Shown here piece by piece: positions 3,120 to 60,360 of a stretch of 60,360 bases of DNA. Made by a program: the position numbers and the translations under genes. The DNA comes from a virus. Under the pieces are notes generated by a model. That model was not told the DNA's origin and ran no database searches. It saw only the letters and a list, made by a program, of their open reading frames with translations. Location of the stretch: IMG/VR virus record IMGVR_UViG_3300050821_009973, positions 1-60,360 of that record; one strand, 5' to 3'. Position 1 is the first letter of the stretch; each line of letters starts with the position of its first letter.

Positions 3120-3823
3120 GCCCCAGCGGCGGCACAGTCGCAGCTACGCCGCAAGAACGGGCGCTTGCCTCCAATGCGATGGCGTCCTTCAAGGACTACC
3201 AGACGCGCTGGTTGCCAGTGCAGGATCACCTGAGCAGTGTCGTATCCGACATGGCCAAGCCAGACTCCTGGCAGAAGCAGGAGGCCGAAGGCAAGGGCAA
3301 TGTGGACGTTGCGCAAGAGTTTTCGAAGATGAACGCGCAGCGTAACACCAGCCAGATGGCCAGCGGCATCAATGTTGGCTCGGCTCGCTTCAAGATGGGC
3401 ATTGCCAGTGGGGCTAGCGCTGAAGCTGAGGCCAGAGGCATGGCAGTTAACACGGGTGAGCAGGCGATCAACAAAGCCTATTTGGCTAATTTGGGTGCTA
3501 TTTCGCGCACGGGGCAGAGCCTGGCCACTTCGGCGACACAGGGGCAGGGCGCAGGTGGTGAGGTCGCGAGCCGTATCGCAGTCTCTGGCGCGCAGGAACA
3601 AAATGCTGTGAACGCTGGCAACGTGAGCATGGCCACACTTGGTATTGGTGCTATAGGTGGTGCGCTCAACAGTCCAGGAAGCCCCACCCCAAATACAAAT
3701 CCGACGATGACGATGGATCCAGCCGGGACAACTTATTCCGGAGGAGGCAATTATTCGCCGGGCCTTAACATCAATCCGGCCATCACGAGCAGCTACATGC
3801 CGAGTTTGAGCCCACAACAATGA
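3116..3823 (+). CDS. Putative internal virion protein, 235 aa
   Basis: It is rich in Ala, Gly, Ser and Gln, with long helical stretches (about residues 15-150) and a Gly/Pro/Asn-rich C-terminus. No enzymatic motif is visible. It is the first of five consecutive genes (3116-13584) with the ordering and composition of podovirus ejection or internal core proteins. It is coupled by overlaps to both neighbours (ATGAG at 3116 and TGACAATG near 3820). Confidence 0.75.
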   Translation: MSPSGGTVAATPQERALASNAMASFKDYQTRWLPVQDHLSSVVSDMAKPDSWQKQEAEGKGNVDVAQEFSKMNAQRNTSQMASGINVGSARFKMGIASGASAEAEARGMAVNTGEQAINKAYLANLGAISRTGQSLATSATQGQGAGGEVASRIAVSGAQEQNAVNAGNVSMATLGIGAIGGALNSPGSPTPNTNPTMTMDPAGTTYSGGGNYSPGLNINPAITSSYMPSLSPQQ

Positions 3824-6690: not shown

Positions 6691-9600
6691 GTGGGCGCGC
6701 CGCTCGAAGGCTACGTCAGCCCGTTTAACGATCGGCAGTCCGTACAGCCGACTGCGCACGGCGGTGGCCAGCCACTTGAGGGTTACGAGAGCCCTTGGGG
6801 CCAGGAGCGGGCGCCTGATGAAACGATGGGCATCGGTGAGACCGCCGGCCGTGAGGTCATGGGTGGTCTGGCCACTATGGGGCGCTTCAGCAGGAATGCA
6901 TTGGGCACGATCGCGGGCGTTGCCGATTACGTTCATAGCAGACTGACTGGCAAGGACGAGACGGGGATTCAGGACGCTGTCTTCCGTACGGCCGACTCCA
7001 TCATCAAGCCGATGGAGGAGATCGCGAACAAGCCTGGTGAGCGCTCACTTGCGGGAGAGATAGTTGGTGGTATAGCCAACATCCCATCCTTCATGCTGAG
7101 CTGGCCGCAGCACGCGATCGACACTGCTCAGGAAATGGTGGCGCGGGGGGCGACCACCTGGGAGGCTGTGAAGGTGGCCGGGCCCCAGGCGGTGCTGGAT
7201 GCTGCTCTGCAGATTCCTGCCGCAGGGCAGATTTACGGGGCTGGGGCGAGGGTAGCGACGCGCTTAGGCGCTCGCAAGTTGGTCAGCGGTGGTGCATCGC
7301 TTTTGTCGGGTGCCGCAACAGGCATTGGATTGGGCGTTGCGGGTCGCGCGGCGCAGAACGCGACGCTACCCGATCGGCCCGAGTTCGCCGACATGAAGCA
7401 GGACGCGATCGGCACGCCTGCTCAGTTGGCGCTCGATGCAGCGATGGGGTCGATTGCTGGTCACATGAGCGCAGCCCATGAGCGGGCCGCTGAGCAGATC
7501 CGCAAGATCGGTGCCGACAAGACAATGTCGACGGCCGACAAGCTGCGGGCTATCCAGGAGATCACTGGCAAGACGGTGCCGCCTCCGAAGGAGCCAGGCA
7601 AGCCAGGCGAGACGCCGCTGCCTGGTATCAATGAGCCAATCCCACCTTCGCCGAGCGGACCCAGAGTCCCGATTGAGCTGAATCCGGCTGAGCGCAAACA
7701 GCCGCTGCCGGAGATCAGCCCAGACATCAAAGGCATCAACATCAGCGATTACGGGGGTGGCCAGCCACCACCGCCGGCAGGGGGCGAGACTCCGTTGCCG
7801 CGCATCGAAGGCCAGCCAGCGCCAGCACCCGATGCGACCGCGGTGCCGCGTCTGCCAGAGGCAGCCCCACCACCACCGCCGAAGTCTGATCGTCAGGCCG
7901 AGCTGGAGCGGAACCTGGGCAACGCCGAGGAAGGGCCGACGCAGGCTCTCCTGAAGAAGGAGATCGCGGCTGAGGCAAAACGCACCAAGGATGCCTGGGA
8001 GGCCGAGCAAAAGCAGCGTGCCGATGACAAGACGGCAGCCGACATGCGTGCGCAGGCCCACGATACGACTGATCCGAAGATCGCTGCGAAGCTACTGGCC
8101 GAGGCCGAGAAGCTATCGCCCATGCCCGCAGAGCCGCCAGCGCCACGGGAACGTCCCGTGGGGACATCGGACCAACGCGTCGGGGCCCAGCTTCGCCATC
8201 GCATTGCCATCGAGGGGCACGAACCAGAGGGCCAGACCGACGTCATTCACACGATGGAGGCCGGCGGTGAGCAGCGCGCCGGCCTACCGCTTGCCGCGCC
8301 AGCGGAGGCTGCCCATGCCCCGGGCCAGCCAGCCCCTCCTCCAACCGCTGGCGCGGCGCCTGGAAAAAGTCCCCTGTTCCAGGCCCTGCACGACGATCTG
8401 GGTGGCATCCACCTGAATGAGCGCGACGGCGTAGGCATGGATGGCAAGCCTGGCAAAGGTACCATCCTGATGTCCGGCAAGAACCCCCAGGGCAAGATGC
8501 GCGGGCCTCTGTTCAACAAGCGCGGCGCCCTGATGGACAAGATCACCGACTGGATGCTGCAGAAGGGCTACATGTCACCGGATGACGCTCGGGCCGGGGA
8601 CGCGATCCTGCCAGGCGGTGGTGCCCACGAGATCGCGCGCGAGCTGATCCGCAAGGAGATCCGTGAGCCCGGATCAGTGAAGCCACTGGGTGAGGGCGAG
8701 CACGCCTGGGAATCGATCAAGGAGCACAAGCGCGGCCTGGCAATGCAGGACGAGGCGCAGCGCTTGGGCATCGACACCAAGGGCCGCACCACCGACGAGA
8801 TCGCCGACGACATCAATAAGGTCCATGACACCCGGCACCTGTCCGAGCATGGGCTTGAGCCGTTGCACGGAGAGGATGCGCGCGCGATACACGAACTGCG
8901 CGCTGCCGATCCAGCGCAGGCCGCTGCGATCGAGCAAGCGCATTGGGGTGATCCGGATCACACCGCCTTCATGGCAGACGTAAGGAGAGCACTCGATGCC
9001 CACACCGCAGCAGTTGATCGGGGCGGCCAACGCGATGAGCCCGGACCAGGTGGCCAGGTTCAAGAACCAGCAGTACGTGGCGAGCCTGCGCCAGGCGCCG
9101 AAGTTCCGGCAGGGCGGGACACCGTACGGGGTGAACAAGGCCCTGAGCCAGGTCAAGCCGGCGGACGTACTGAAGCCGGACCCGAGATTCAACCAGCCGG
9201 GGCCGAGCGCGGAGCTGAGACCCCAGCCGAAGCCGGAGAGCCTGTAAGCCCGATTGGGAATTTCAGCACGCCCAAGCTCGAAGCGATGGCTAAAGCCGTG
9301 CAGAAGCGCGTTGATGCAGCCGAAGCGAAATTCGGGGAAGCTGAAAAAGTAGATCGCCGAGGGATGCAATCCGGTAATGAGCCGCGGGAGAAGCAGGAAA
9401 GCTTGAGACGAGTCAAGGATGATCTGAAGCAAATCAACGATGAGCTTGCGCGCCGAGCGGAAACGGAAAAAACGCAAGAGCCCAATGCCGCGGCGAAAGA
9501 AAAGCCACAAGCCAGCCGTTCCCTTGAGGGGGCCAGGCGGGAGCGTGAGCGAGCTTGGGAACAGAAGAATCAAGAAGATTACTCAAAGGCAATATCAAAT

Positions 9601-12600
9601 CTCAACTCACACGTAGAGTTCATGAAGACTCAGCTTGACAATGCTGGGCTGAGTTGGCTACATGAGGGCATTGACTATAGAGTCAATGATGATCTTCCCA
9701 TGGGGGCTGATGCCAATGCCGGCTGGGAAAATGGGCAGTTCGTAATTGAAGTGCGCCCAGAAGCGGTTGCCGATCACCCGAATACAGTGGCTAAGCTGAT
9801 GTTGCACGAGCATGCACATCCATTGGATTGGGGGCGCCGAGGGCTTTACTCCACTGATCCGGTACTGCACGTTGAGGTACGCAATGGCAAGATTGAGCCA
9901 GTGGGCGAGGCTGCCAAGGAATTGTTTGCGTTGGCGAAAACCAATCCTATTTTGACCGATTTGCTCCGATATCCACTCGATCCGCGATTTGGTAGTCTGC
10001 ACGCGGACCCACGCGCATTCGAGGGCGAGTTGTTCGCCCAGGGCTTCGTGGCGCGAGCCCTGCCCGAACTCAGAGAGGTGCTGCAAAATGAAGCCCCGAC
10101 GTTCTGGAAGTTCATGGGGGACGTCCGCGCGCACGCGCGGGAACACGGCGAATTCCCGCAAGTCGGCACCGTGGGGGCAGCAGCCCTCAAAGACCTCCGG
10201 GACACCTTCCGAGAAGCCCGTGACGCCGGAGGACCTGTCGATGCCGGGGGATCCGATCGCGCCCTTTCAGAGTCCGCTGCTAGAGAGCCTGGCGCCGGAC
10301 CTGGGACACCAGGGGCCGAACGAGGAACCGAGCGTGCTGCCGCAGACGCCGAGCGAGCAGCCGATAACTCCGAACTCAGACTAAACGAACCACCGCAGGC
10401 CCACGCTACCCCACCGCCTCCCACCAACATCGAGGAGGCCAAGCCGCTGCTGGAGCGGGTGCGCGAGCAGCCACTGCTCAAGGGCGCCCGCGAGATCATG
10501 GGGGGTTTTGCCGATCAGGTTCTGAAGCACACCGCACCCATGGTGCTGGGCTCCAAGCGGGCCATGGCCATGGTGAAGGACTGGGCCAATGCCGATCGGC
10601 TGGCGCGGTGGCAGTGGCAGAAGTTCCACGAATTCATCATCAAGGGGCATACGCCTGAGCGTCGTACGGAAATGTATAACGCGGGCGAGGAAGAAAACCA
10701 GATGCGCCTGAAGGGTGAAGTCGACCCGAACCGTGGTCTAGGTCGCTTGACCGACGATGAGCGCGACACCATGAAGGTACTGCACGACTACGGCGATCAC
10801 CTGATGCTGCGCGCCAAAGAGGTCGGGATGATCGACCCTGAGAGCGGGGTGCCGTACTGGGTGCCTCACGCTGCAGCGATGATCGGGGATGACGGCATCG
10901 TCCGGCAAGTGCCTCGCAAGAGCCAGGCCGAGGGCAGCGAGGTCGGCACCAATCTGACCGTTACCGCGCCGTCAGCCAGGTTCCGCAAGTGGGGCACCAT
11001 CCAGGAAGCGGAGGCTGCGGGGCAGAAGCACTACGGCAAAGATTTCAAGATCGTGCGCGACATCGCCACCATGCCGATGGCCATGGGCCGGCTGGAGCGG
11101 GCCATAGCTGGGCGCGATTTAATCAATCACATCAAGGAGATCGGTGAGCGCACCGGCCAATCCCTGGTCCAACTGGATCCGAACGAGGCCACCCACTTCA
11201 CGATCAACCACCCGGCCTTCACCACCTACGAGTGGAAGAAGGGCTCGATCCCGATCAGTGAGGCACACGACCAGCAGCTATGGGATCAGTTGCACAAGGT
11301 GGCTGGAGCCCTGGGGGTCAAGCATGAGCGGCTGGCCCAACTGCGGCAGGGCGGCAATTCGACCTGGGGCGTGGCGCAGAAGGGCGGCGGGATCAAGACC
11401 CGGTTCGCTGGACCAGAGACGGTGCTCACGCACGAGCTGGGGCACCAGATCGATTTCAAGTACGGGCTGCAAAAGGAAATGCAGGGAACTCCTGGGGTGG
11501 CCCAGGAGCTGCGGGACCTGGCTGACCAGCGCTATGCCGGCAAGGACCCAGCCAACGTCAGCCAGTATTACAAGGACTATGTGCGCAAGGGCACAGAGCA
11601 GATGGCCAACCTGGTGCACGCCTATGTGCACGCACCGGAGCTGCTGGAGCGGGTGGCACCGAAGGCCAAGGCCCTGTTCGAAAAGTTCCTGGACAAGCAC
11701 CCGGAGATCGGCGAGCCCCTGCGCGAGGCCAAGCCCTCGGTAACGCTGGGCAGCCGCAGCCAGGACATCGGATTCAAGTTCCCGCAACGAGTTCCGCTGC
11801 ATGTGGCTAAGGAGTTCGAGGGGCCGCTGCGCTCGATCCTGAACGACGGGCCCAACAGTAAAGCCTACAACGGGCTGATGGGGATGAAGACTCTGGCGGT
11901 CGAGTCGATCATGTACTCGCCTGCGATCCACTTGTCGGTGGTGCTGGGCCGGATTCTGCCGGCGGCACCGGGCCGGTTGCTCAGCGGACGCCTCTACATG
12001 GATGGGGCCCGGGCTCTGGCCGATGAGGCGGGTGGCTACAAAGATATGCGCCGGGCCATCGGTACAGGGGGCATGGCCCCGATCGGCAAGTTCGGCGCTC
12101 GGCAGGACATCACTGGAGTCACATCGCACGTCTCGGAAGATCCACGTGAACAGACCTGGGCCCAGGCTCCAGTCACCAAGGTGGTGTCGGGGGCGCTGAG
12201 TGCTGTTGGGATGGAGAAGGCCAGCCTGGGAGCGGCCAAGGGTCTCTACAAGGCGGCCGACGTTTGGCATAACCAGATGCTGTGGAACCACGTGGCTAAG
12301 CTGCAGATGGGCCTGTACCTGCACGCCGAGGAACACTTCATAAAGAACAAGGGCTTGGATCCAGACAGCGCGGCTCGTGCTGCCGGCATCATGGCCAATC
12401 GCTACGCCGGCTCAGTGCCCAACGAGTCGACCTCCCCGCTGATGCGCAAGTTCTTGAACCTGGAGGAATTCTCCAGGCAGTTCACCACCGGCAACCTGGG
12501 GGCGGTGAAGGACGCAGCAGTCGGCATGGAGCAAGCTACCCGCGCTCAGATCGAGCGCGACGTTGGCCCCGAAATGGCCAACAAGGCGCAGCAGGTATTC

Positions 12601-13584
12601 CGGAACAAGTCGCGGATGATCTTTGCCCTGGACGTAGCGCTGATGTACGGTGGTGCCTCGACCCTGCAGGACTACTTCAAGCACAAGATCGATCCGAACG
12701 CACCAGAAGGAATTCCAGGTACTTTCAAGGGGTTGGCAACCGGAGACATGGAGCGGGTCAAGGAAGCAATGCGCGGCTACGATCGGCGCATGGCAGAGGT
12801 GGCCTCGCGTGTCCATGACAATCCGCTGCATTTGCTCAATCCATTCCAGTTGGCATCCGAGGTGGAGTCGACTGAAGACAACGAGCCTGGCAAGAAGCAG
12901 CGCATCCTGGTCGGGTATGGGGCGGACGGGTCGGCCAGGTACTACCGGTTCAGCCTAGGCAAGGTGGGGGAGGACTTCGTCGGGTGGCTGACGCACTTTC
13001 ACGACATGCTGGCCAACAAACAGTCGACCCTGGTGCGGCCGATGATTCAGATCATGGCCAACAACAAAGGGTTCAACGGCTCCGATCGGCAGGTCTGGGA
13101 CGAGAACGCGGTGAAGAACCTGGGGTTGCCGGTGGGGGCAGCCAAGATCGCTGGCCAGATCGCAGCTCACTTCATGTCAGCTCAGGTGCCGATGGATGCC
13201 CTGAAGGGAATACCGGCGCTGGCCCAGGGCAAGCTGGGCTGGGAGGACATGGATGCGGTCCATACAGTCGGTCCCCTGGCCGGGCTGCAGTTCTCCAAGG
13301 GCTTCCCGGGGGGGCCCGCGGTGGGCGAGGTCTCGATGGAGCGCAAGCGCTACGAGCAGGACATCGCCCGAGTCGGGCCGGATATCCGCGAAGCGCTGCA
13401 CAACGGGGACCGCGCTACGGCAACCAAGCTAATGAACGAGGTCCATATGCGGACGCCGGACCGCCAGATGTTCTTCCGATTGGCTACCCATCCAGGGCTG
13501 TCCGGTGGGGCTCTGAAGCGGTTCATGCAGACCGCTACTCCGGAGGAGCGCAGTGACCTCCAGCGGCTGCGGCACGGCGAGTAA
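6691..13584 (+). CDS. Giant polyvalent-type virion protein with two HExxH motifs, 2297 aa
   Basis: The start is GTG at 6691, three bases after the preceding TAA. Proline-rich disordered segments occur around residues 290-400, and Ala/Gly/Glu-rich linkers around 770-850 and 1170-1235; the last two contain nested reading frames. Two zincin-like sites are visible: HEHAH (H1039, H1043) in LHEHAHPLDWG, and HELGH (H1581, H1585) in LTHELGHQIDF. The second, with its downstream helical region, resembles the metallopeptidase domain of phage polyvalent proteins. The C-terminal 700 aa are helical and lack recognisable enzymes. The likely role is an internal virion protein injected with DNA; protease activity is inferred from motifs only. 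Confidence 0.85.
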   Translation: MGAPLEGYVSPFNDRQSVQPTAHGGGQPLEGYESPWGQERAPDETMGIGETAGREVMGGLATMGRFSRNALGTIAGVADYVHSRLTGKDETGIQDAVFRTADSIIKPMEEIANKPGERSLAGEIVGGIANIPSFMLSWPQHAIDTAQEMVARGATTWEAVKVAGPQAVLDAALQIPAAGQIYGAGARVATRLGARKLVSGGASLLSGAATGIGLGVAGRAAQNATLPDRPEFADMKQDAIGTPAQLALDAAMGSIAGHMSAAHERAAEQIRKIGADKTMSTADKLRAIQEITGKTVPPPKEPGKPGETPLPGINEPIPPSPSGPRVPIELNPAERKQPLPEISPDIKGINISDYGGGQPPPPAGGETPLPRIEGQPAPAPDATAVPRLPEAAPPPPPKSDRQAELERNLGNAEEGPTQALLKKEIAAEAKRTKDAWEAEQKQRADDKTAADMRAQAHDTTDPKIAAKLLAEAEKLSPMPAEPPAPRERPVGTSDQRVGAQLRHRIAIEGHEPEGQTDVIHTMEAGGEQRAGLPLAAPAEAAHAPGQPAPPPTAGAAPGKSPLFQALHDDLGGIHLNERDGVGMDGKPGKGTILMSGKNPQGKMRGPLFNKRGALMDKITDWMLQKGYMSPDDARAGDAILPGGGAHEIARELIRKEIREPGSVKPLGEGEHAWESIKEHKRGLAMQDEAQRLGIDTKGRTTDEIADDINKVHDTRHLSEHGLEPLHGEDARAIHELRAADPAQAAAIEQAHWGDPDHTAFMADVRRALDAHTAAVDRGGQRDEPGPGGQVQEPAVRGEPAPGAEVPAGRDTVRGEQGPEPGQAGGRTEAGPEIQPAGAERGAETPAEAGEPVSPIGNFSTPKLEAMAKAVQKRVDAAEAKFGEAEKVDRRGMQSGNEPREKQESLRRVKDDLKQINDELARRAETEKTQEPNAAAKEKPQASRSLEGARRERERAWEQKNQEDYSKAISNLNSHVEFMKTQLDNAGLSWLHEGIDYRVNDDLPMGADANAGWENGQFVIEVRPEAVADHPNTVAKLMLHEHAHPLDWGRRGLYSTDPVLHVEVRNGKIEPVGEAAKELFALAKTNPILTDLLRYPLDPRFGSLHADPRAFEGELFAQGFVARALPELREVLQNEAPTFWKFMGDVRAHAREHGEFPQVGTVGAAALKDLRDTFREARDAGGPVDAGGSDRALSESAAREPGAGPGTPGAERGTERAAADAERAADNSELRLNEPPQAHATPPPPTNIEEAKPLLERVREQPLLKGAREIMGGFADQVLKHTAPMVLGSKRAMAMVKDWANADRLARWQWQKFHEFIIKGHTPERRTEMYNAGEEENQMRLKGEVDPNRGLGRLTDDERDTMKVLHDYGDHLMLRAKEVGMIDPESGVPYWVPHAAAMIGDDGIVRQVPRKSQAEGSEVGTNLTVTAPSARFRKWGTIQEAEAAGQKHYGKDFKIVRDIATMPMAMGRLERAIAGRDLINHIKEIGERTGQSLVQLDPNEATHFTINHPAFTTYEWKKGSIPISEAHDQQLWDQLHKVAGALGVKHERLAQLRQGGNSTWGVAQKGGGIKTRFAGPETVLTHELGHQIDFKYGLQKEMQGTPGVAQELRDLADQRYAGKDPANVSQYYKDYVRKGTEQMANLVHAYVHAPELLERVAPKAKALFEKFLDKHPEIGEPLREAKPSVTLGSRSQDIGFKFPQRVPLHVAKEFEGPLRSILNDGPNSKAYNGLMGMKTLAVESIMYSPAIHLSVVLGRILPAAPGRLLSGRLYMDGARALADEAGGYKDMRRAIGTGGMAPIGKFGARQDITGVTSHVSEDPREQTWAQAPVTKVVSGALSAVGMEKASLGAAKGLYKAADVWHNQMLWNHVAKLQMGLYLHAEEHFIKNKGLDPDSAARAAGIMANRYAGSVPNESTSPLMRKFLNLEEFSRQFTTGNLGAVKDAAVGMEQATRAQIERDVGPEMANKAQQVFRNKSRMIFALDVALMYGGASTLQDYFKHKIDPNAPEGIPGTFKGLATGDMERVKEAMRGYDRRMAEVASRVHDNPLHLLNPFQLASEVESTEDNEPGKKQRILVGYGADGSARYYRFSLGKVGEDFVGWLTHFHDMLANKQSTLVRPMIQIMANNKGFNGSDRQVWDENAVKNLGLPVGAAKIAGQIAAHFMSAQVPMDALKGIPALAQGKLGWEDMDAVHTVGPLAGLQFSKGFPGGPAVGEVSMERKRYEQDIARVGPDIREALHNGDRATATKLMNEVHMRTPDRQMFFRLATHPGLSGGALKRFMQTATPEERSDLQRLRHGE
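8996..9247 (+). CDS. Nested 83-aa gene in the +1 frame of the giant virion gene
   Basis: The ATG at 8996 follows a strong ribosome binding site (AAGGAGAG, 7 bases upstream), and the frame stops at 9247. The product looks like an ordinary protein (QLIGAANAMSPDQVARFKNQ near its start). Over the same bases the host frame encodes only a low-complexity Gly/Pro/Ala/Glu linker. That contrast, plus the ribosome site, supports real translation. Function unknown. Confidence 0.5.
   Translation: MPTPQQLIGAANAMSPDQVARFKNQQYVASLRQAPKFRQGGTPYGVNKALSQVKPADVLKPDPRFNQPGPSAELRPQPKPESL
10241..10384 (+). CDS. Second nested gene in the giant virion gene, 47 aa
   Basis: An ATG at 10241 lies 7 bases after GGAGGA and opens a 47-aa frame rich in Pro, Gln and acidic residues (PGDPIAPFQSPLLESLAPD). 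The host frame here is again a low-complexity Ala/Gly/Arg/Glu linker. It uses the same relative frame (+1) and the same arrangement as the nested gene at 8996. The product may be disordered; function unknown. Confidence 0.4.
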   Translation: MPGDPIAPFQSPLLESLAPDLGHQGPNEEPSVLPQTPSEQPITPNSD

Positions 13585-25604: not shown

Positions 25605-25647
25605 CCGGCGCCAGAGTTACGATTGTGACTGGCGCCGGTTTCATTTT
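25605..25647 (+). terminator. Strong 10-bp hairpin, terminator-like, at the helicase start
   Basis: CCGGCGCCAG (25605-25614) and CTGGCGCCGG (25629-25638) pair perfectly and are followed by TTTCATTTT. The 14-base loop contains the GTG that opens the helicase frame. It may terminate or attenuate transcription from the operon, or occlude that start. Confidence 0.65.
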
Positions 25648-26647
25648 CATCCTCCTAATCACTCAAGTAATTGAATTGACTAGCAGCGCGCGTCTGCGCG
25701 AGGTAGCCAATCAGGTTGCGGCGGAGCATCGCATCATTCGCGATGCGCGCAAGGTCGATGTGAACAAGTGGGGCGTGCCTGATGATGCCCATTTGTTACG
25801 CGCGCCGGCCGCCTTTCTCGATGATGTCCAAGCTCTGTTCGTCGATCACGGCTGCAAGGGTGATCTGATGCCCGCCACCAAGACGCGTGAACTGCTGCAG
25901 TTTCGCCCCGGGGAGGTCACCATCTGGGCCGGCTACAAGGAGTCCTACAAGTCGACCTTCTGCAATGAGCTGTTCACCTATTGGGCTGCCAGTGGCATCC
26001 AGGTGGCGATCTCCTCGCTGGAAATGCCGGCGGCCATGCTGCTGCAGACCACCATCAAGCAGGCCCTGGCCACGGATGAGCCCACCCCAGCTCAGATCGA
26101 GCGGGCCCTGGAGCGGTTATCCGAAACGATGACCATCTACGACGTGGTGGGGCGGCTGCCGTTGCGCCACATGCTGGCCGTGATGATGTACTGCGCCAAG
26201 GAATTGGAGTGTAAGCACTTCCTTCTGGACAATCTGTCGATCCTGCTGTCGATCGACAATGATCGGCAGGGTGAGCACCAGCAGTTCATTGCGGACACGC
26301 TGACGGTGGCCAAGAGCACGGGGATGCATGTGCACCTGGTGGCTCACCTGACCAAGCCGGAGGGGGGTGACGAGTCCAAATTTCCCAATGGGTATGCGAT
26401 CCGTGGCACTGGGACGGCGCCGGATTTGGTTCACAACATCCTGCTGATCTGGCGCAATAAGCCCAAGGAGAATAAGCTCGATGGCAACGGCCCGGTAGAC
26501 GAGGCGGTGCGGCGTCAGCCTGATCTACAGCTCCGGGTCGACAAACAGCGCTACTGGGACTATCGCGGCACCATGGGCTTCTGGATTAACCGGCGATGTC
26601 TACGATTCCAAGAGTTCGGCTTCACCGAGTGCGCGCCTTTCCTGTGA
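25625..26647 (+). CDS. DnaB/Twinkle-like RecA-fold helicase
   Basis: The body matches phage replicative helicase C-terminal domains in order: GEVTIWAGY, SSLEMP, FLLDNLSILL (Walker B region), HLVAHLTKP, then IRGTGTAPDLVHNILLIWRNK. The P-loop reads AGYKESYKST, so the usual last Gly of GxxxxGK[ST] is Tyr. The frame opens at GTG 25625 inside a hairpin and its first 17 residues are hydrophobic, so a later start (for example TTG 25676) is likely. It probably unwinds DNA at the fork with the initiator at 37258 and host polymerase. Confidence 0.78.
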   Translation: MTGAGFIFILLITQVIELTSSARLREVANQVAAEHRIIRDARKVDVNKWGVPDDAHLLRAPAAFLDDVQALFVDHGCKGDLMPATKTRELLQFRPGEVTIWAGYKESYKSTFCNELFTYWAASGIQVAISSLEMPAAMLLQTTIKQALATDEPTPAQIERALERLSETMTIYDVVGRLPLRHMLAVMMYCAKELECKHFLLDNLSILLSIDNDRQGEHQQFIADTLTVAKSTGMHVHLVAHLTKPEGGDESKFPNGYAIRGTGTAPDLVHNILLIWRNKPKENKLDGNGPVDEAVRRQPDLQLRVDKQRYWDYRGTMGFWINRRCLRFQEFGFTECAPFL

Positions 26648-27550: not shown

Positions 27551-27618
27551 GATTTCCTCCGGTATCGGGCATGGTGCCCGCACAGGACCCCGGTGGCTGC
27601 CAGGGGCCTGCACTGGTA

Positions 27619-29475: not shown

Positions 29476-30096
29476 TCAGCCCTCCAGTAGATCCATGAAC
29501 TCCCCGCCTGGCGACCCCATCTGCACCAGGATCTTGGCCACCGCATTGGCAAGGGCGATGATTTCCTTGCGATTGGCATAGTTAAAGATCACCATGAAAG
29601 CATCGAGGAGGTCGCCGGCAAACTCAGCAGGAGTCTCGTCGTCGCCCACCTCCTGCAATTTGCGTTCAAAAGCTACCAGGTACTCCGCCCGATCCTTGTG
29701 CTTACCGATAAACTTTCGCGCCGCCGGTACCAGCCGCTTGAGGAACTTGAGGTCGCTCAGGGTATTGGAGCCAAGCTGCGCAATGGCAATCCGACGTAGC
29801 CCCTCGGCCCTGGCCTGGGCATCGTTCTCATTACCATACTCATCATGGGTTTCCCAGGCATCGTGATCGTTCAGGGCAATTTTCAGGTACCGCACTGACT
29901 CCGCAACACAGGGGGGATCATCCGAGTGCGGCAGGCCCATCGCATAGCACACCGCGGCTTCTATGCACATATAGCCGGGTCTTTCTTCTCCCATCCCACG
30001 ACTGAGCCCCGCATCGACCACCTTGAGCACACGCGCCGCTAGGCTGCGATTGACGGTCAGGTGCTTCCTTGTCGGTTTCTTCACTTCCTTTGCCAT
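29476..30096 (-). CDS. Hypothetical helical protein, 206 aa
   Basis: ATG 30096 is chosen because CCGGAGA stands seven bases upstream; the longer form from 30117 ignores that site. The block MCIEAAVCYAMGLPHSDDPP near residue 45 looks like a conserved phage pattern, and the C-terminal half is a helical bundle. A leader hairpin with loop AUGGC precedes it. Function unknown. Confidence 0.68.
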   Translation of the reverse strand: MAKEVKKPTRKHLTVNRSLAARVLKVVDAGLSRGMGEERPGYMCIEAAVCYAMGLPHSDDPPCVAESVRYLKIALNDHDAWETHDEYGNENDAQARAEGLRRIAIAQLGSNTLSDLKFLKRLVPAARKFIGKHKDRAEYLVAFERKLQEVGDDETPAEFAGDLLDAFMVIFNYANRKEIIALANAVAKILVQMGSPGGEFMDLLEG

Positions 30097-30113
30097 TTCC
30101 ATTCTCCGGTTGT

Positions 30114-30132
30114 GCACACCGCCATGGTGCGC
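30114..30132 (-). promoter_or_regulatory. Leader hairpin 1 of 4, loop AUGGC
   Basis: On the minus strand GCGCACC-ATGGC-GGTGTGC forms a 7-bp stem (one G-U) and is followed by ACAACCGGAGA and the gene at 30096. A GC-rich upstream stem-loop (30135-30172) separates it from the previous gene. See the three related elements. Confidence 0.55.
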
Positions 30133-30181
30133 GGGGTTGCCCCCTCATATGGACAGGGGCAAACCCTCGCTCAGTGGCTGA

Positions 30182-30643
30182 TTAGGCCGCTTCGTTCATC
30201 TGCGACAGAAGCGCCGCCAGAGGATCGCCGTCGGTGCTGTCATCGCGCTCGGCATCGATAACCTGCCGCAGGGAAACCAACTGCTTCGGAGTCACGATCA
30301 GGTGATCCACGAACTGGATGCCAGCGGCGTCCAGTCCATCGCTCACTTGTTGCGTGAATTCCCGATAGTCCGAGCCTTCGTCCAGATCCAGCCGGTTGGT
30401 CGGATCGTTGTGCACTAAGAACGCCCGGACGGCTGCGACCTTCTTGCCGGCATCGACCATCAATTGCACCGTGCTGTCGATGTCCCCTTCGGGCGGCGGC
30501 AGAAGGGTCGTCCCGATCACATGGGCATCCCCATCCGTCCAGATCGCGGTCATCGTCTCCGCGGCTCCCCGAAAGATCCTGGCATACGCCAGAGCATGCT
30601 TCGGGCTGTCGAGCACCGCTACATTTCTCATTGCTGCTGTCAT
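30182..30643 (-). CDS. RadC/JAB-like protein with degenerate metal site, 153 aa
   Basis: The fold order of RadC is visible: SPKHALAYARIFRG, a strand region, AVRAFLVHNDPTN at the position of the HNHPSG motif, an Asp-rich loop, then DAAGIQFVDHLIVTP and a final LVSLRQ. The second His of HxH is replaced by Asp (HND), so zinc-dependent activity may be lost or altered. It lies directly upstream, in operon order, of the 30096 gene and beside two other RadC-like genes. Confidence 0.65.
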   Translation of the reverse strand: MTAAMRNVAVLDSPKHALAYARIFRGAAETMTAIWTDGDAHVIGTTLLPPPEGDIDSTVQLMVDAGKKVAAVRAFLVHNDPTNRLDLDEGSDYREFTQQVSDGLDAAGIQFVDHLIVTPKQLVSLRQVIDAERDDSTDGDPLAALLSQMNEAA

Positions 30644-30665
30644 TTTTTAGTTCCCTTTACGGTTA

Positions 30666-30689
30666 CCGTGCATCGCCATTGACGCACGG
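30666..30689 (-). promoter_or_regulatory. Leader hairpin 2 of 4, loop AAUGGC
   Basis: Minus-strand CCGTGCGTC-AATGGC-GATGCACGG forms nine pairs. It is followed by TAACCGTAAAGGGA and the RadC-like gene at 30643, and preceded by a second GC-rich stem-loop (30690-30715). Confidence 0.58.
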
Positions 30690-30722
30690 GGTAGCCGGCT
30701 GGACCCGGCTAACCCTCGCGCC

Positions 30723-30833
30723 CTACTCGGTCCGAACTGCCTCATCGGGATCGGGCTCATCCAGCATCGGAGGAGCCCCATCGTCGTCGAAGCGTTCGTT
30801 CTCGATAATCAACTGCCGGTCTTGCTCATCCAT
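30723..30833 (-). CDS. Small acidic protein, 36 aa
   Basis: ATG 30833 follows TTGGAGATTTGG. Very acidic (ENERFDDDGAPPMLDEPDPD), disordered-looking; could be a DNA mimic or partner-binding peptide, but that is a guess. Confidence 0.55.
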   Translation of the reverse strand: MDEQDRQLIIENERFDDDGAPPMLDEPDPDEAVRTE

Positions 30834-30854
30834 TCCAAATCTCCAACGGTTGCC

Positions 30855-30874
30855 GCGTACCGCCATTGGTGCGC
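30855..30874 (-). promoter_or_regulatory. Leader hairpin 3 of 4, loop AAUGGC
   Basis: Minus-strand GCGCACC-AATGGC-GGTACGC pairs at six of seven positions, followed by GGCAACCGTTGGAG and the gene at 30833. Upstream AGCTGTCGG and CCGACAGCT (about 30888-30940) form a wider stem. Confidence 0.55.
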
Positions 30875-30952
30875 GTGATAGCTGTCGGTTGCTGAGCCCA
30901 TGTTGCAACGACCGGATGGGTCCAGGCGACTACCCGACAGCTAAAGCTCGCA

Positions 30953-31726
30953 TCAATTCATCTGACTGGGATCGACCTTGCCGTCCTTGTCTTTGGGTAG
31001 ATCCTTGGCCAGATCGCGTTTCTCAATGATCTGCCGAGCCTCCTTCACCTTTTCAATCACCGCCTTGGCAATGGCCAGATCCTCGTCGTCCAGATTGGTT
31101 GGCAGGTTCTCGCCCATCTTCACCAGGCGGCCCAGCAATATCCCAGTGAGCGCCAGCACAATGTGCGGCGGCATGACCCCCACCACCTTGGTAATGCTGT
31201 CCTCGTCCTCGATGGTGTGAACGTCACCGGCTGACTCCATGGCCTCTTTACTCCCGGCCTGCTTCTCTTTCTTGAGATAGTCGCCCATTGAGGCTGCCTT
31301 GGCGCCCTTGACGATGATGTGATCCAGCACCTTCACATCGATGTACCGCAGCGCGTTGCTCATGGTCTTGGTCATCACCAGGTCTTCCTCCGAAGGCTTT
31401 GGCGGCCACGCCTCATCGCTGCCAGGGTGGTTGTGGCACAGCACCACGCCCCACGCATTGGCTGCAATGGCCTCGCGCATGACCTCGCGCGGGAACACGG
31501 CCGTGGTTTCCAGCGTACCCCGGAACATTTCCTTGGTCGAAATCAAGCGGTGATCGCTGTCCAGGAACAGGCACGACATCTGCTCATAGGGCAGCTCCCC
31601 GTACTTGAGCGTGCAATACTGCATCGCGTCCGCCTTGTTCTCCAGCAACGGACCGTCCTTCTTCAGCCGGGCCTCCAGAATGCCCACTGCACTGGCGATC
31701 ACGGCATCGCCTTCCCTTGCGGTCAT
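30953..31726 (-). CDS. RadC-family JAMM-domain protein with C-terminal extension, 257 aa
   Basis: Residues about 1-150 match the RadC JAB/MPN domain: LFLDSDHRLI, EMFRGTLETTAVFPREVMRE, then VVLCHNHPG, ending DHIIVKGAKA. The HxH is intact but the loop to SxxD is longer than usual (11 instead of 7 residues). The last 110 aa are helical and charged and not part of RadC. The N-terminal HhH domain of chromosomal RadC is absent. The start at ATG 31726 is set by GAAAGGG. Cellular function of RadC proteins remains unclear; on plasmids and phages they cluster with anti-restriction genes. Confidence 0.85.
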   Translation of the reverse strand: MTAREGDAVIASAVGILEARLKKDGPLLENKADAMQYCTLKYGELPYEQMSCLFLDSDHRLISTKEMFRGTLETTAVFPREVMREAIAANAWGVVLCHNHPGSDEAWPPKPSEEDLVMTKTMSNALRYIDVKVLDHIIVKGAKAASMGDYLKKEKQAGSKEAMESAGDVHTIEDEDSITKVVGVMPPHIVLALTGILLGRLVKMGENLPTNLDDEDLAIAKAVIEKVKEARQIIEKRDLAKDLPKDKDGKVDPSQMN

Positions 31727-31750
31727 AATCAAGCCCTTTCTCGGTTGTCG

Positions 31751-31767
31751 AATGCCGCCATGGCACC
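31751..31767 (-). promoter_or_regulatory. Leader hairpin 4 of 4, loop AUGGC
   Basis: Minus-strand GGTGCC-ATGGC-GGCATT forms four Watson-Crick and two G-U pairs, followed by CGACAACCGAGAAAGGG and the RadC gene at 31726. GGATGGG and CCCATCC (31771-31789) form the upstream stem-loop. Confidence 0.5.
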
Positions 31768-31912
31768 CGCGGATGGGGCTGTCCCATCCGTGGGGGTCAT
31801 TAATACCAAGTAATCGCACAACTTCGGTGGAACAGTGTCCACTGGATGAAAGTCCTGCGCCACTGAAAGCGAAACGCGCGAATATCCCGGTAGTTGGTGC
31901 AATGCCAATTCA

Positions 31913-32948: not shown

Positions 32949-32995
32949 TTCCAAATCTCCGGTTTGAGTCGGGGCCAGCCAAGGCCCCTTCTCGG

Positions 32996-34284: not shown

Positions 34285-34716
34285 TTAAGTCAATGCCAGC
34301 CCGCCCGGGCCAGCTCCAATTACCACCACCAACATCACACCCAACAACACCTCTGGCAAATACAGCAGATCATCACACCAGTCCGCCCAGTCAATCGGCG
34401 CCCAGTCTTTGATCCGCTCCACTCCATCCAAGCACGTGGCCACCATGCAAATGGCAACCAGAAAGAACGCGCACATCGGGGCATACAACCCCATCGCCAC
34501 GGCTGAGCCGGCCGTCAGTTCCACGATGGGCACAAACCACTGATTGATCCGTACAAGGGGCACGCCATCCTTGTTCAAGGTACTCACCAGGGCTTCGTGG
34601 CGCGCACGATTGAAAACCTTGTGGTACCCACTGAAGGCAAAAAAGACCCCGACTGCCGCTCGATTGACAGTCAGGGCGACCCCAGCCAATCCAAATCCAT
34701 GGGTCAAGGCGTCCAT
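34285..34716 (-). CDS. DoxX-like four-helix membrane protein, 143 aa
   Basis: Four hydrophobic helices and the DoxX-type N-terminal pattern RAAVGVFFAFSGYHKVF, then FVPIVELTAGSAVAMGLYAP and FFLVAICMVAT. DoxX relatives are bacterial inner-membrane proteins linked to redox or thiosulfate metabolism; a phage copy is unusual. It stands at the end of a run of small membrane-protein genes. Confidence 0.7.
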   Translation of the reverse strand: MDALTHGFGLAGVALTVNRAAVGVFFAFSGYHKVFNRARHEALVSTLNKDGVPLVRINQWFVPIVELTAGSAVAMGLYAPMCAFFLVAICMVATCLDGVERIKDWAPIDWADWCDDLLYLPEVLLGVMLVVVIGAGPGGLALT

Positions 34717-35611: not shown

Positions 35612-35826
35612 ACCCCCTCCGATTCGGCCACCAACCGTGCAAAGTCCAGCCACAGATACCGTGCGCCCTGGCGCGTCTCACCCTGCTTGAACTCAGCGAA
35701 TTGATCCATCGATGAGCAGTCCACGCCAAGCTCAACCAAAGGCACCCAATCGGGCTCAATGCCCTTTGGCACCAGGTGCACATTGGCTGCTCGCCACAGA
35801 ATGTCGCTGAGCTTGAGCTTCCTCAT
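35608..35826 (-). CDS. Hypothetical protein, 72 aa
   Basis: Soluble, mixed composition ([20 protein letters not shown]), no family recognised. ATGA overlaps with the RadC-like gene upstream and the membrane peptide downstream. Confidence 0.62.
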
Positions 35827-36323
35827 AGCAGTCCCTTCTCAGCAAACGAAGTGGAGGTGCCGCCTGCGGTAACGATGTGATCGAGCACATGCACATCGAC
35901 CATCTTCAAGGCGGCTTTCAGTTCTCGGGTCAGAGACTGGTCGGCATGGCTGACCTCCGGGTTGCCAGAGGGATGGTTATGGGTCAGGATCACGCCAGCG
36001 GCATTGCGTGCTAACGCACCCTTGACGACCTCGCGCGGATACACCGAGGTCTGCGTCAATGTCCCTCGAAACAGCTCCTCGACCTCGATCAAGTGATTGT
36101 CAGCGCTCACATACAGGATCGTGAACACCTCATGTTCCAGGTTGGCAAAGCGGACGGCCAGGTAGTCGCGAACGGCTCCCGGACTGGCCAGAACCGGCCC
36201 AGAGGCGACGCGACGCTGGAGAATGGCCAGAGCAGCGGCGATCGTGATGTCATCGTCTGAGAGCGCTTTAGCCGCGTACGGGGCCACATCTTGCGTGCGG
36301 ACGGCGCGTGCTTTGCGAGTCAT
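35823..36323 (-). CDS. RadC-family JAMM-domain protein, canonical metal motif, 166 aa
   Basis: A RadC-type MPN domain without the HhH region: [38 protein letters not shown], then [15 protein letters not shown], which is a complete HxHx7SxxD zinc site, ending LDHIVTAGG. The conserved Glu (EELFRG) is present. ATG 36323 follows GGGAGCCGC; a longer form from 36383 is possible. With 30182 and 30953 it makes three family members in the accessory block. Confidence 0.87.
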
Positions 36324-36765: not shown

Positions 36766-36790
36766 GTCCGTATCTCCAAAGGGAAAGGGT

Positions 36791-36823
36791 AAAAAAAAGG
36801 GGGGCGGACCTCAGCCCCCCCCC
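36791..36823 (-). terminator. Strong intrinsic terminator on the minus strand
   Basis: On the minus strand a GC-only stem (GGGGGGGC with GCCCCCC) is followed by eight T residues. It lies after the gene at 36830-37078 and separates it from the long accessory operon. Confidence 0.85.
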
Positions 36824-36829
36824 TGCCGA

Positions 36830-37090: not shown

Positions 37091-37269
37091 AAATCAACGG
37101 TTTGCGCCGCAGCGACCGCTACGGCTATCCGTACTTTGGGCGCTTAGGAAGCTTGTCAATATCCCGCATTCGCGTTACGACGTTAAAAATCAACGACTTG
37201 CGCGAATACCGCGAGCGCGCTAGCCGTACACGCTATTTTTAAAGGCGAGGAAAATCAATGACTTACGAT
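37091..37269. promoter_or_regulatory. Divergent control region with three imperfect 18-base repeats
   Basis: AAATCAACGGTTTGCGCC (37091), AAATCAACGACTTGCGCG (37187) and AAATCAATGACTTACGAT (37252) are similar; the last covers the start codon of the initiator gene. They could be binding sites for an autoregulator. A palindromic TTGTCAA at about 37154-37160 gives -35-like hexamers in both directions, but -10 boxes are poor, so promoters are not assigned. Confidence 0.45.
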
Positions 37270-38091
37270 AGACTGCTCAGATGGTCCTTGTCCGAGTCGA
37301 ACCGCTTCGTCGGACTACACGACGACTCGCACCGACTCCTGTTCATCGCCCTACTCTGGCGAGCTAACGATTTCGGTTGCCTCGAATGCGACACTGAGTC
37401 AATGACCCGTTGGGTATCAACCTTCACCCAGATCAAAACCCCCCTCGCATTCCTCGCCGCTATCACGGCTTTAGCCGACTGCGACCTAGTCCGCCGTTAC
37501 GAGGCCGAGGAAAGAACCTTCCTTTTCATCCCCAGATTCCGCAGCGCACGAAGCTACACAACTAGGGCCGGCATACCACCAAGCCCTTGGTGTAAACCCA
37601 ACGCACCCACAGGCAGAATCAGAGTCCTTGCTAAGCCATTCGTCCAAGGCAAACCATTGACAAATGACATGGTTAGCGCAACCTTGCGACAACCTAGTGC
37701 TAACCCAATGTCAGTTAGCGCTAACAAACATGAGGAAATGGCGGATCTGTTCGCTGAACAGCCAAAAGTTAGCGGTCAGTTAGCGGGAGGGGTTGGGGAA
37801 AAGAAAGAGAAAAAAGATGCGCGTTCCGCTGGTCGCGGAACCCGCCTCCCAGATGGTTGGACAATTCCGCCCGGTTGGACGGACTGGACGATTGCGCACG
37901 CTGCGGGCCGTTCGGTCGCAGTGAGCGCAGAGGACGTGCGACGACTGAGCGAGCAATTCCGCGACTGGGCGCTATCGATTGGCACCGTACGGAAAGACTG
38001 GCTCGCCACATGGCGGACATGGGTTCGAAGGGAAAACCTGCAAAAATGGGCGACGAAAGCGCAGGACGATGATTTGAACCGTTGGACCTAG
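37258..38091 (+). CDS. Replication initiator / helicase-loader-like protein, 277 aa
   Basis: The N-terminal 110 residues have the layout of a winged-helix phage replication protein (HRLLFIALLWRANDFGCLEC, then LADCDLVRRYEAEERTFLFI). A disordered middle (about 125-195) holds iteron-like DNA repeats in its coding sequence. The C-terminal 60 residues resemble the DnaT/O-type domain (RRLSEQFRDWALSIG, RKDWLATWRTWVRREN). Probably binds the origin and recruits a helicase, either the phage enzyme at 25625 or host DnaB. Confidence 0.78.
   Translation: MTYDRLLRWSLSESNRFVGLHDDSHRLLFIALLWRANDFGCLECDTESMTRWVSTFTQIKTPLAFLAAITALADCDLVRRYEAEERTFLFIPRFRSARSYTTRAGIPPSPWCKPNAPTGRIRVLAKPFVQGKPLTNDMVSATLRQPSANPMSVSANKHEEMADLFAEQPKVSGQLAGGVGEKKEKKDARSAGRGTRLPDGWTIPPGWTDWTIAHAAGRSVAVSAEDVRRLSEQFRDWALSIGTVRKDWLATWRTWVRRENLQKWATKAQDDDLNRWT
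37672..37786. promoter_or_regulatory. Candidate replication origin with GTTAGCG iterons inside the initiator gene
   Basis: Five GTTAGC copies occur within 115 bases: 37672 (+), 37697-37704 (inverted, one mismatch), 37714-37725 as the palindrome GTTAGCGCTAAC, and direct copies at 37768 and 37779. A purine-rich, A-rich stretch (37787-37820) follows, as in lambda, where the origin lies in gene O. Assigned by analogy. Confidence 0.6.
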
Positions 38092-58299: not shown

Positions 58300-60360
58300 A
58301 TGGCCATCGCGCAGGGCACGCCTTTCTACGACGTCACAACCAATCTCAGCCCGACTGCGACTGATCGGTTCCCGCTGATCTACAGCCTGACGTCGACCAC
58401 CATCACCACGATCGATTACAAGCCCCTGCAGACCTTCGGTGGTTCCTCGGGTGTAGCTCCCGCCGGCCCTCCGAGCGGTGATGGCAAAGCCTACCCGACT
58501 GCAATTCCGAGCGGAGCCCCTGGTGCGGCTACGACGGCGACCGCGGCTGAAAACGCTTACTGGGGCTCAATCTACGGCTTCGCCACAATCCCCAATATCT
58601 ATAACACCTACGGTTATCCAGGCCCGGGTGCGACGGCCGGGATTCCATACGGCGCCGGCATTGCGATGGTCTTGCAGCCCAGCGGTTACATCGTGGTGTG
58701 CGAGTTCCAGTTACCGAGCGTAGCCAATTCGATCTCCGGTGGTGTCTCAGCCGCCACATCGGGTACTCATGCTTGCATGTGGGTTCTGAACCCGGCCAAT
58801 TGCAGAGCGGTGTACGACGTGATCCCGGCCTTAAGCGGCAGTCCCGCTTATATCTGGGGCGCAATGCCATGTGCTGATGGGATTCACTTGGTTGTGCTCA
58901 CGGGTGCCAGTAGCAGTGCGGCCAATACGTGGCACGTACTGACGCTGTCGTCGGCCTCGGCTTCAGAGGTTGCGGTGGGGCCCTGGGCCAGTGGGCCTGA
59001 GTTAATGGGCGATCCGAATAATCTAACGAGCTTGAACAGCATTGCGCTGGGCTCATCGACTGTGCAGAACCGTGAGGCTTTAATCAACCAAACTGCCAGT
59101 ATCGTCGGCATGCTGGAGTCGGACCTAAATCATCTTTGGATCGTGTCCTCAAGCTCGGAGTGGTATCTGCTCAACCTTGTGGGTGGTATGACTTCGGCCA
59201 CAATTTTTCACGGATTAGGGGGGTTTTCCGGTACTACCCCATTTGTGAAGTGGCTCAACACGGGTGAGTTCAGCACCAACATCACGGTCTTCGCTGACAA
59301 CGGTGCAGCCGCCGGCATGGTGGCCAACTGGATGGCGTACTGGGTGCGGCAGACGTCAGTCACAGGTGCCGAGGAGGTCGACGTTGCCAAGGCGGCGATC
59401 TCGAACGATCAGAGCGTGCGGACGTATTTTTGCGGTCTGGATGTGCCGCGCTTCACCGATCTGGGCCTGTCGACCGGCCTGACCAGCGGTGGCAACCCAG
59501 TTACCGGCAGCTCCACGGTGGCCGCCAATGCCGGGCCGTACCCGATCTACTCGCGCAAGATCGGAGTGCCGAATCCGAGCGTCCCGGCCTCGGGCGCCGT
59601 GGTGCCGGCTGCAGCAGGGGCCAACAATGTGACGCTGATCGACACGTTCGATGCCCCCATCAACTGGAATCTACCGGGCAATACGACCACTACCGGGGCA
59701 TCCTTCTTGGTAGTGGGAGGCAATCCCGGGGCCTGCATGCAGATCCAATCGATCGGTGCCACGCAGGTCATCGCTTCGAAGAACTTCTCTATCGATCAGA
59801 CACAGCCCGTCACGCTGGATGTGGACTTTACTTTCATCCGGGCCTTTAACGCGCGGCTGACTCCGAGCAAGATGGACTTCTTCATCGGTCTGGACTCCAG
59901 CGTATCGGGTTCCGTGGTTCGGATCGAGAACACCGCTCTAGGTGTCACGCTGCATTTTGCTTCAGTCAGCAATGGAGTGATCGGCACGGACGTCGGCACG
60001 TACGTCATCCCATCAGGATCGATTCCCACTTGGCACGTCGACTTGGATCCGACCTTCACCGGCTTCATTCAGACCGGGCAGTGGTTCCATGCCACGCTTG
60101 CAGTCACGCCGGTCACGGGAGCCACGACCAGTGGCACGATCGTTTTTACCTGCAAGTTCGGCTCGACCGTGGCTTTCACTCAGACACAGACCGGAATGCC
60201 GATTGCCGGCAGTGGTGCTGGGGTGGGATGTTGGGACCCAGTCGAAGCTTACCCAGACTGGGTCATACTGAAAGTCGATAACTTCACAATCGCGGGAACA
60301 GGGCCTGCGGCAGCCACCTCGAACCTGCAGGCAACGACTTATCTCTACACGCTGGTGAAT
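58300..60360 (+). CDS. Tail protein with large inserted beta domain (continues at 1-1520)
   Basis: ATG 58300 directly follows the preceding TGA. About 620 residues of strand-rich, Thr/Ser/Gly-rich sequence (AIAQGTPFYDVTTNLSPTA; WHVLTLSSASASEVAVG) come first, then the conserved tail-protein part beginning near 60200 and continuing through the circular junction to 1520. Total about 1127 aa. The first 620 aa are not part of the usual family and may be a receptor-binding or decorative insertion. Ribosome site weak; translation is probably coupled to the 58036 gene. Confidence 0.8.
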   Translation, partial: MAIAQGTPFYDVTTNLSPTATDRFPLIYSLTSTTITTIDYKPLQTFGGSSGVAPAGPPSGDGKAYPTAIPSGAPGAATTATAAENAYWGSIYGFATIPNIYNTYGYPGPGATAGIPYGAGIAMVLQPSGYIVVCEFQLPSVANSISGGVSAATSGTHACMWVLNPANCRAVYDVIPALSGSPAYIWGAMPCADGIHLVVLTGASSSAANTWHVLTLSSASASEVAVGPWASGPELMGDPNNLTSLNSIALGSSTVQNREALINQTASIVGMLESDLNHLWIVSSSSEWYLLNLVGGMTSATIFHGLGGFSGTTPFVKWLNTGEFSTNITVFADNGAAAGMVANWMAYWVRQTSVTGAEEVDVAKAAISNDQSVRTYFCGLDVPRFTDLGLSTGLTSGGNPVTGSSTVAANAGPYPIYSRKIGVPNPSVPASGAVVPAAAGANNVTLIDTFDAPINWNLPGNTTTTGASFLVVGGNPGACMQIQSIGATQVIASKNFSIDQTQPVTLDVDFTFIRAFNARLTPSKMDFFIGLDSSVSGSVVRIENTALGVTLHFASVSNGVIGTDVGTYVIPSGSIPTWHVDLDPTFTGFIQTGQWFHATLAVTPVTGATTSGTIVFTCKFGSTVAFTQTQTGMPIAGSGAGVGCWDPVEAYPDWVILKVDNFTIAGTGPAAATSNLQATTYLYTLVN
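60164..60360. repeat. Terminal direct repeat (right copy)
   Basis: Same 197 bases as 1-197 with G instead of A at the position equivalent to 99 (60262). Confidence 0.93.

Follow-up and report, generated by a model that had tools for sequence, protein, structure and literature searches.

Four genes on the minus strand of the virus genome analysed here, starting at positions 30096, 30643, 30833 and 31726, are preceded by leaders of the same design, which raises the question of whether these leaders carry a common structured RNA element and, if so, what this element may do for the genes behind it. The window, that is, the whole stretch of DNA that was analysed, is 60,360 bases long and comes from a virus (IMG/VR record IMGVR_UViG_3300050821_009973). 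Because its first 30 bases (1-30) are found again at 60,164 onward, the record probably represents a complete genome with terminal redundancy. The terminase best matches that of Pseudomonas phage AF (43% identical), and the portal protein shows 31% identity to that of Rhizobium phage RHph_TM3_14A. The latter phage also has an ORF similar in size to a 2297-aa ORF of the window (6691-13584, plus strand), for which no Pfam or PHROG match was found. The leaders fall within a minus-strand gene block that extends from a DnaB-like helicase gene (25625-26647) to a replication initiation gene (37258-38091), and no DNA-level relative of the leader region was detected among 50,697 named phages.

As the initial annotation had described, all four leaders lie at the places that it gave and contain, in the same order, a GC-rich hairpin (hp1), a small hairpin (hp2), AACCG and a ribosome site followed by the ATG (Table 1); hp2 and AACCG are separated by 1-4 nt, the ribosome site is a Shine-Dalgarno sequence, and the hp2 loop is (A)AUGGC in every case. 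Leader 4 begins near 31799, a few bases beyond the end previously assigned to it. The statement that stem pairing is kept holds for leaders 1, 2 and 4. In leader 3, however, the stem given as GCGCACC/GGTACGC includes a C-A mismatch (6/7 pairs), and its extension to CGCGCACC/GGTACGCG yields 7/8 pairs. The leader 4 stem TGCC/GGCA is paired as proposed but was drawn too short, the actual stem being GGGTGCC/GGCATTC with 7 pairs, two of which are G-U. The four leader hairpins are real and beyond chance: a scan for an RTGGY loop closed by at least six pairs, with AACCG just after, found four matches in the window, whereas first-order Markov versions of it gave 0.13 on average, and these matches are exactly the four leaders, all on the minus strand.

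Table 1. Leader features in the window, in its relative G001 and in contig L305. Bit scores are those of model R2.
Feature	Location	Strand	Remarks
Leader 1 hp1	30134..30166	-	GGGTTTGCCCC/GGGGGCAACCC; 1.3% of random 40-mers from this genome equally stable
Leader 1 hp2	30114..30132	-	GCGCACC-AUGGC-GGUGUGC; 7/7 pairs, one G-U; 42.4 bits
Leader 1 AACCGGAG	30104..30111	-	conserved AACCG fused with Shine-Dalgarno
Gene behind leader 1	29476..30096	-	206 aa; no family
Leader 2 hp1	30691..30715	-	GGGUUAGCCGG/CCGGCUACCC
Leader 2 hp2	30666..30689	-	CCGUGCGUC-AAUGGC-GAUGCACGG; 9/9 pairs, one G-U; 37.0 bits
Leader 2 AACCG	30660..30664	-	followed by UAAAGGG Shine-Dalgarno
Gene behind leader 2	30182..30643	-	153 aa; divergent RadC-like JAB domain (Pfam RadC E 9.5e-9, weak)
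Leader 3 long upstream stem	30880..30942	-	AGCUGUCGGGU/ACCGACAGCU
Leader 3 hp2	30854..30875	-	CGCGCACC-AAUGGC-GGUACGCG; 7/8 pairs, one C-A mismatch; 38.6 bits
Leader 3 AACCG	30847..30851	-	followed by UUGGAG Shine-Dalgarno
Small ORF behind leader 3	30723..30833	-	36 aa, acidic; frame read directly
Leader 4 hp1	31770..31790	-	CGGAUGGG-ACAGC-CCCAUCCG
Leader 4 hp2	31750..31768	-	GGGUGCC-AUGGC-GGCAUUC; 7/7 pairs, two G-U; 40.6 bits
Leader 4 AACCG	31742..31746	-	followed by AGAAAGGG Shine-Dalgarno
Gene behind leader 4	30953..31726	-	257 aa; clearly RadC-like (Pfam RadC E 1.4e-33)
Possible fifth leader (L5)	27556..27611	-	before gene starting 27550; hp1 CAGGCCCC/GGGGUCCUG, hp2 CGGGC-ACCAU-GCCCG, ACCGGAGG
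Possible partial variant	32957..32988	-	before gene starting 32948; GGGGCC-UUGGCU-GGCCCC, then AACCGGAG
G001 gA	before 359-aa gene	-	GGGCGCC-AUGGU-GGCACCC
G001 gB	before 199-aa gene	-	GGGCGCCU-AUGGU-GGGCGACC
G001 gC	before 136-aa gene	-	GGGCGCCC-GUGGU-GGGCACCC
G001 gD	before 66-aa gene	-	GGCGCGGCCU-AUGGU-GGGCAGCGCC
L305 hairpin in radC leader	within 3190-3240 / 3750-3796	+	CGCGCCCC-UUGACCG-GGGGCGCG
L305 hairpin in leader of gene after radC	within 3190-3240 / 3750-3796	+	CGCGCCCA-UUGACCG-UGGGCGCG

Two of the four leader-bearing genes in the window are RadC-like, the one starting at 30643 weakly and the one starting at 31726 clearly. Together with a third gene (35823-36323), the early region holds three minus-strand genes with RadC-like JAB domains of differing divergence (the other two being 30182-30643 and 30953-31726). 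The 36-aa ORF behind leader 3 contains 14 acidic residues and is possibly a DNA-mimic-like small protein. A possible fifth leader and a possible partial variant are also present in the window (Table 1), and other early genes of the window (33693 and 33237) have AAACCGGAG without the hairpin. The possible fifth leader is the best window site outside the training set of covariance model R2, described below (27551-27583, 16.4 bits, E 0.17) and was also reached independently via ACCGGAG. Its ACCAU loop is exactly complementary to AUGGU and could form pairs with the loops of the other leaders; alternatively, it might suggest strand-independent recognition.

A terminase search identified a 56-kb relative, G001, whose structural genes are syntenic with those of the window. 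The terminase and portal proteins of the two phages are 75-77% identical, the DnaB proteins 55% and one RadC protein 54%. The minus-strand early block of G001 contains four leaders (gA to gD) with the same layout, order and spacing as in the window, all followed by AACCGGAG. Taken over all eight copies, the loop has the consensus RUGGY, and each copy has its hp2 base 17-22 nt upstream of the start codon. The leader-bearing genes of G001 and the window are non-homologous. The two phages share a RadC domain, which in G001 is encoded by a gene with no element directly before it. Since the genes behind the leader differ in this way between the two phages, the conservation belongs to the leader. 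Searches for relatives by the RadC and 206-aa proteins alone yielded none.

All eight copies are located on the early strand, and none precedes a late gene. Most genes in the early blocks of both phages abut or overlap their neighbours, and the elements fill real gaps of ~70-120 nt. One other gap of such size was seen in the window block, before 36765, where a terminator-like hairpin with a T run is present instead of the element; the sequence there, GGGGGGCTGAGGTCCGCCCCCCTTTTTTTT (36785-36825, minus strand), resembles a strong intrinsic terminator within the early block. At the leaders themselves, neither intrinsic terminators nor sigma-70-like promoters were found, and no promoter-like pair before any start was better than 8/12. 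The block has two further features on the minus strand: three similar stretches of approximately AARYCRTTGATTT near its head (37095-37270), which are possible regulatory repeats, and a gene for a DoxX-like membrane protein (34285-34716, Pfam E 4.8e-11).

In a model-based alignment of the eight copies, 85.7% of the stem cells pair, versus 74.5% when partners are shuffled, and only 1 of 500 shuffles reached as high a value. Sliding the alignment by 1-3 columns reduced the paired cells to 29-49%, and four of the seven pairs are changed on both sides. Because this alignment is fitted to the structure, the arms were also registered by hand, counting outward from the loop. With this registration, 51 of the 56 cells pair, compared with a mean of 40.8 over all permutations of the 3' arms, and 36 of the 40,320 permutations reach at least this number of pairs. 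Five of the eight stems contain one A mismatch on the 3' arm; it is a C-A or G-A mismatch at position 4 from the loop in four copies and a G-A mismatch at position 5 in gB. The three C-A mismatches against six G-U pairs do not clearly separate RNA recognition from DNA recognition. These results support the view that the leaders contain a structured RNA whose stem pairing is kept by covariation in two genomes. The initial annotation had read the leaders as a structured RNA element, and this reading is strengthened by the four additional copies, which precede non-homologous genes in the relative and whose stems covary. The copies, their layout, the covariation and the sharing of the element between non-homologous genes of two phages are direct observations.

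Two covariance models were used, R3 built from the four window copies only and R2 from all eight. R3 scored its own copies at 41-47 bits, the next window site being a 22.6-bit match inside a coding sequence. When applied out of sample to G001, it detected gA (28.3 bits, E ~1e-4), placed gC (17.0 bits) and gB (14.3 bits) among a few weak chance matches and missed gD. The members of R2 score 22.7-43.9 bits, gD fitting poorly at 22.7 bits. The initial annotation had named a model without further copies as the outcome that would count against the element; the search instead spoke in its favour within the lineage, in G001, but nothing convincing was found outside it. R3 detected nothing else convincing over 548 kb of phage sequence, including several other phage records, and there were likewise no convincing further copies among the named phages. 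No copies were found in 1,587 proteobacterial genomes (order-wide around four genomes, with ~16 candidates scored per genome). Another relative, G010 (36 kb), was rejected as a carrier, its early block being absent and its model match sitting in a coding region. Among the matches listed, the pattern CCAATGGCGG..AACCG returned G001 plus coding or chance matches, as did GCCATGGYGGC..AACCGGAG in genomes; the pattern CGCC..ATGGTGG..AACCGGAG also returned G001 plus coding or chance matches. None of the covariance models of Rfam 15 families matched the leaders. Judging from these searches, the element is most likely lineage-specific and carried by two related genomes only.

A RadC search led to an otherwise different phage contig, L305, in which the leaders of radC and of the following gene each contain a hairpin with the loop UUGACCG. 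The loop is fixed, one pair is changed from C-G to A-U, and each hairpin is followed by GAGGGTT and ATG. AGGGTT is also present before other starts of this contig (1967, 2170 and 2826), and the hairpin pattern was found in no other viral contig. These two copies in a single contig tentatively suggest that the hairpin-leader design may have arisen, or diverged, more than once.

Folding of the whole window leaders placed hp2 in the predicted minimum for leaders 2 and 4 but not for leaders 1 and 3. The pair probability of hp2 in whole leaders is high in leader 2 (0.95), leader 4 (0.92) and gD (within 0.92-0.95), intermediate in gC (0.67) and low in gA (0.27), leader 1 (0.14), and leader 3 and gB (both about 0); in four of the eight whole leaders, the predicted minimum is clearly a structure other than hp2. 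The hp1 stems of leader 1, L5, gA, gB and gC are among the most stable 2% of 40-mers, and those of leader 3 and gD are weak within the 40 nt tested. Two tertiary arrangements were considered and rejected. An H-type pseudoknot between the UGG of the loop and AACCG cannot cross the groove, because the linker from stem to CC keeps a length of 3-5 nt even though stem length ranges between 7 and 10 pairs. Kissing between the hp1 and hp2 loops would use CCA(U), which is located in or near the hp1 loop of leader 1, leader 2 and gA but is absent from leader 4, gB and gC. In gD, ACCAUC is located in an extra hairpin.

What these leaders do can be proposed from their arrangement. We consider the chances about even that they represent a cis-acting RNA element through which translation initiation is controlled at early genes, joining these genes in an early-gene regulon. 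A polycistronic minus-strand early message would bear the element in most gene gaps of ~70-120 nt, each copy comprising the hp1 stem, hp2 with its fixed loop, AACCG(GAG), which includes the Shine-Dalgarno sequence or runs into it, and the start codon. The base of hp2 would fall at the upstream limit of the 30S footprint, leaving the ribosome site free and marked. A trans-acting factor, which could be a protein of the phage or of the host or else the ribosome, may then read the loop and AACCG, and this reading would switch or boost the translation of all marked genes together. We infer that the RNA folds in this way, acts on translation and is bound by a factor. Such a factor is suggested because the loop and the spacing are fixed, whereas the stem changes freely but stays paired; a fixed loop and tail combined with a turning-over stem are the usual mark of a hairpin recognised by a protein or by the ribosome. 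Because the Shine-Dalgarno sequence is free and hp2 lies at the edge of the ribosome footprint, hp2 alone should not block translation, and a factor bound at hp2 could either collide with the 30S subunit or direct it. The shared protein-binding or translational control site put forward in the initial annotation is, as a putative function, plausible. The early regions of the window and of G001 yielded no candidate for such a factor that is conserved between them. A more specific version, which we offer only tentatively, is that one phage-encoded or hijacked RNA-binding factor reads RUGGY and AACCG and sets the translation of exchangeable early genes, some of them RadC-like, so that any gene gaining the leader would join the regulon, and that L305 applies this design with a loop and a factor of its own.

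Several other explanations need to be weighed against control by a factor. The hairpins may be a structural insulator or stability element that acts without a specific factor, with hp1 and hp2 keeping the ribosome site clear of GC-rich upstream structure and perhaps shielding processed messages at their 5' end in the manner of RNase III sites in T7. The position of hp2 just outside the 30S footprint, the high stability of hp1 in the five leaders named above and the marking of gene gaps by the elements are all in line with this explanation, in which the loop would be fixed by descent or loop stability. It leaves unexplained, however, why the loop and AACCG stay constant when stems turn over and the genes behind them are exchanged, and hp1 is weak in leader 3 and gD; we regard it as rather unlikely. 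Alternatively, the loop RUG might start mini-ORFs serving as leader peptides, as the initial annotation had raised. Every one of the eight copies has AUG or GUG as its loop core, and two window frames (MAMHGNRKGN and MAAFDNRERA) stop just before the gene start. However, the frames of the leaders do not match one another in length or register, with leader 1 having one base fewer between loop and AACCG than the other leaders; the frames from the G001 loop codons, one of which lies in a GUGGU loop, end at unrelated places; the peptides are unconserved; and no Shine-Dalgarno sequence precedes the loop codons. We therefore abandoned this idea as highly improbable.

The alternative pairings found in folding would fit a two-state RNA switch, in which the 5' arm of hp2 has two alternative partners, the 3' arm of the same hairpin and sequence located before hp1, and a ligand, a protein or the translating ribosome selects between them. 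Indeed, an extended hp1 outcompetes hp2 in leader 1, gA and gB (-53.3 versus -42.6 kcal/mol in gB), and in leader 3 a CCAAUGG/CCGUUGG pairing competes and covers AACCG. Nevertheless, the competing structure varies by leader, being weaker or missing in leaders 2 and 4, gC and gD, and such pairings are likely to occur by chance in GC-rich palindromic sequence; we judge a conserved switch quite improbable. The element might also function as DNA: a DNA-binding protein could recognise it as an inverted repeat, or it could be a hairpin promoter of the phage N4 type placed before early genes. This explanation, which we judge improbable though less so than a switch, would account for the position before genes and for the complementary loop of the possible fifth leader, and the nearest formal analogue, the extended start-associated sequences (ESAS) of mycobacteriophages, were judged to be DNA sites and later found to contain SigA-like promoters (PMC3203893, PMC11373665). 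However, pairing rather than stem sequence is kept across the copies, the distance to the Shine-Dalgarno sequence is fixed, no sigma-70-like promoter is present in the leaders, and no virion RNA polymerase was recognised, the 2297-aa, 710-aa and 1169-aa ORFs having no Pfam or PHROG match.

The leaders can be compared with several known systems. Phage translational operators, such as the coat hairpins of MS2 and PP7 and the operator of T4 gp43, are short hairpins by the ribosome site with a fixed loop, a variable stem and often an unpaired A, and each serves one gene and a known protein. A conserved hairpin beside the ribosome site is likewise found here in eight copies, with the spacing given above; in contrast to those operators, the leaders precede four or more genes. 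The Rfam radC RNA (RF01754) is, similarly, a structured leader tied to radC genes, but neither the window nor G001 matches it at E <= 10, nor did a permissive cmscan of the window and L147 detect it.

The closest precedents are the SAS and ESAS of cluster K mycobacteriophages and the translational control of T4. SAS are short conserved sequences that contain a Shine-Dalgarno motif and precede many non-structural genes in one phage lineage, occur mainly in gaps of >50 bp and are common to different gene families; a subset, ESAS, have an inverted repeat just upstream (PMC3203893). The leaders of the window likewise combine a Shine-Dalgarno motif with an inverted repeat upstream of it, in gaps that precede non-structural genes. 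The sequences differ, however: the cluster K SAS is GGGATAGGAGCCC, located 3-9 bp before starts, whereas the leaders of the window and G001 have AACCG(GAG). The 17-bp inverted repeats of ESAS conserve sequence, and the authors found little support for RNA pairing (PMC3203893); they also contain SigA-like promoters (PMC11373665), in contrast to the present leaders, in which stems vary, pairing is kept and no promoter was seen. The role of SAS and ESAS was still termed unverified in 2025 (PMC12699233). In T4, the RegB nuclease and the RegA repressor act on many early genes through a common control signal at the translation initiation region, resembling the leaders in that many early genes share a signal at the ribosome site; GGAG is part of the RegB signal, which needs an unpaired GGA and no fixed hairpin (PMC3014915).

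The start-associated sites of cluster K have been a puzzle since 2011, and the RNA pairing that is missing there is visible in the leaders described here. Because this pairing is visible, loop mutants and compensatory stem mutants give a direct test of the proposed control of translation. If this proposal is true, this group of phages would equip its exchangeable early genes with a shared RNA handle at the ribosome site, and the control signal would be separated from the gene.
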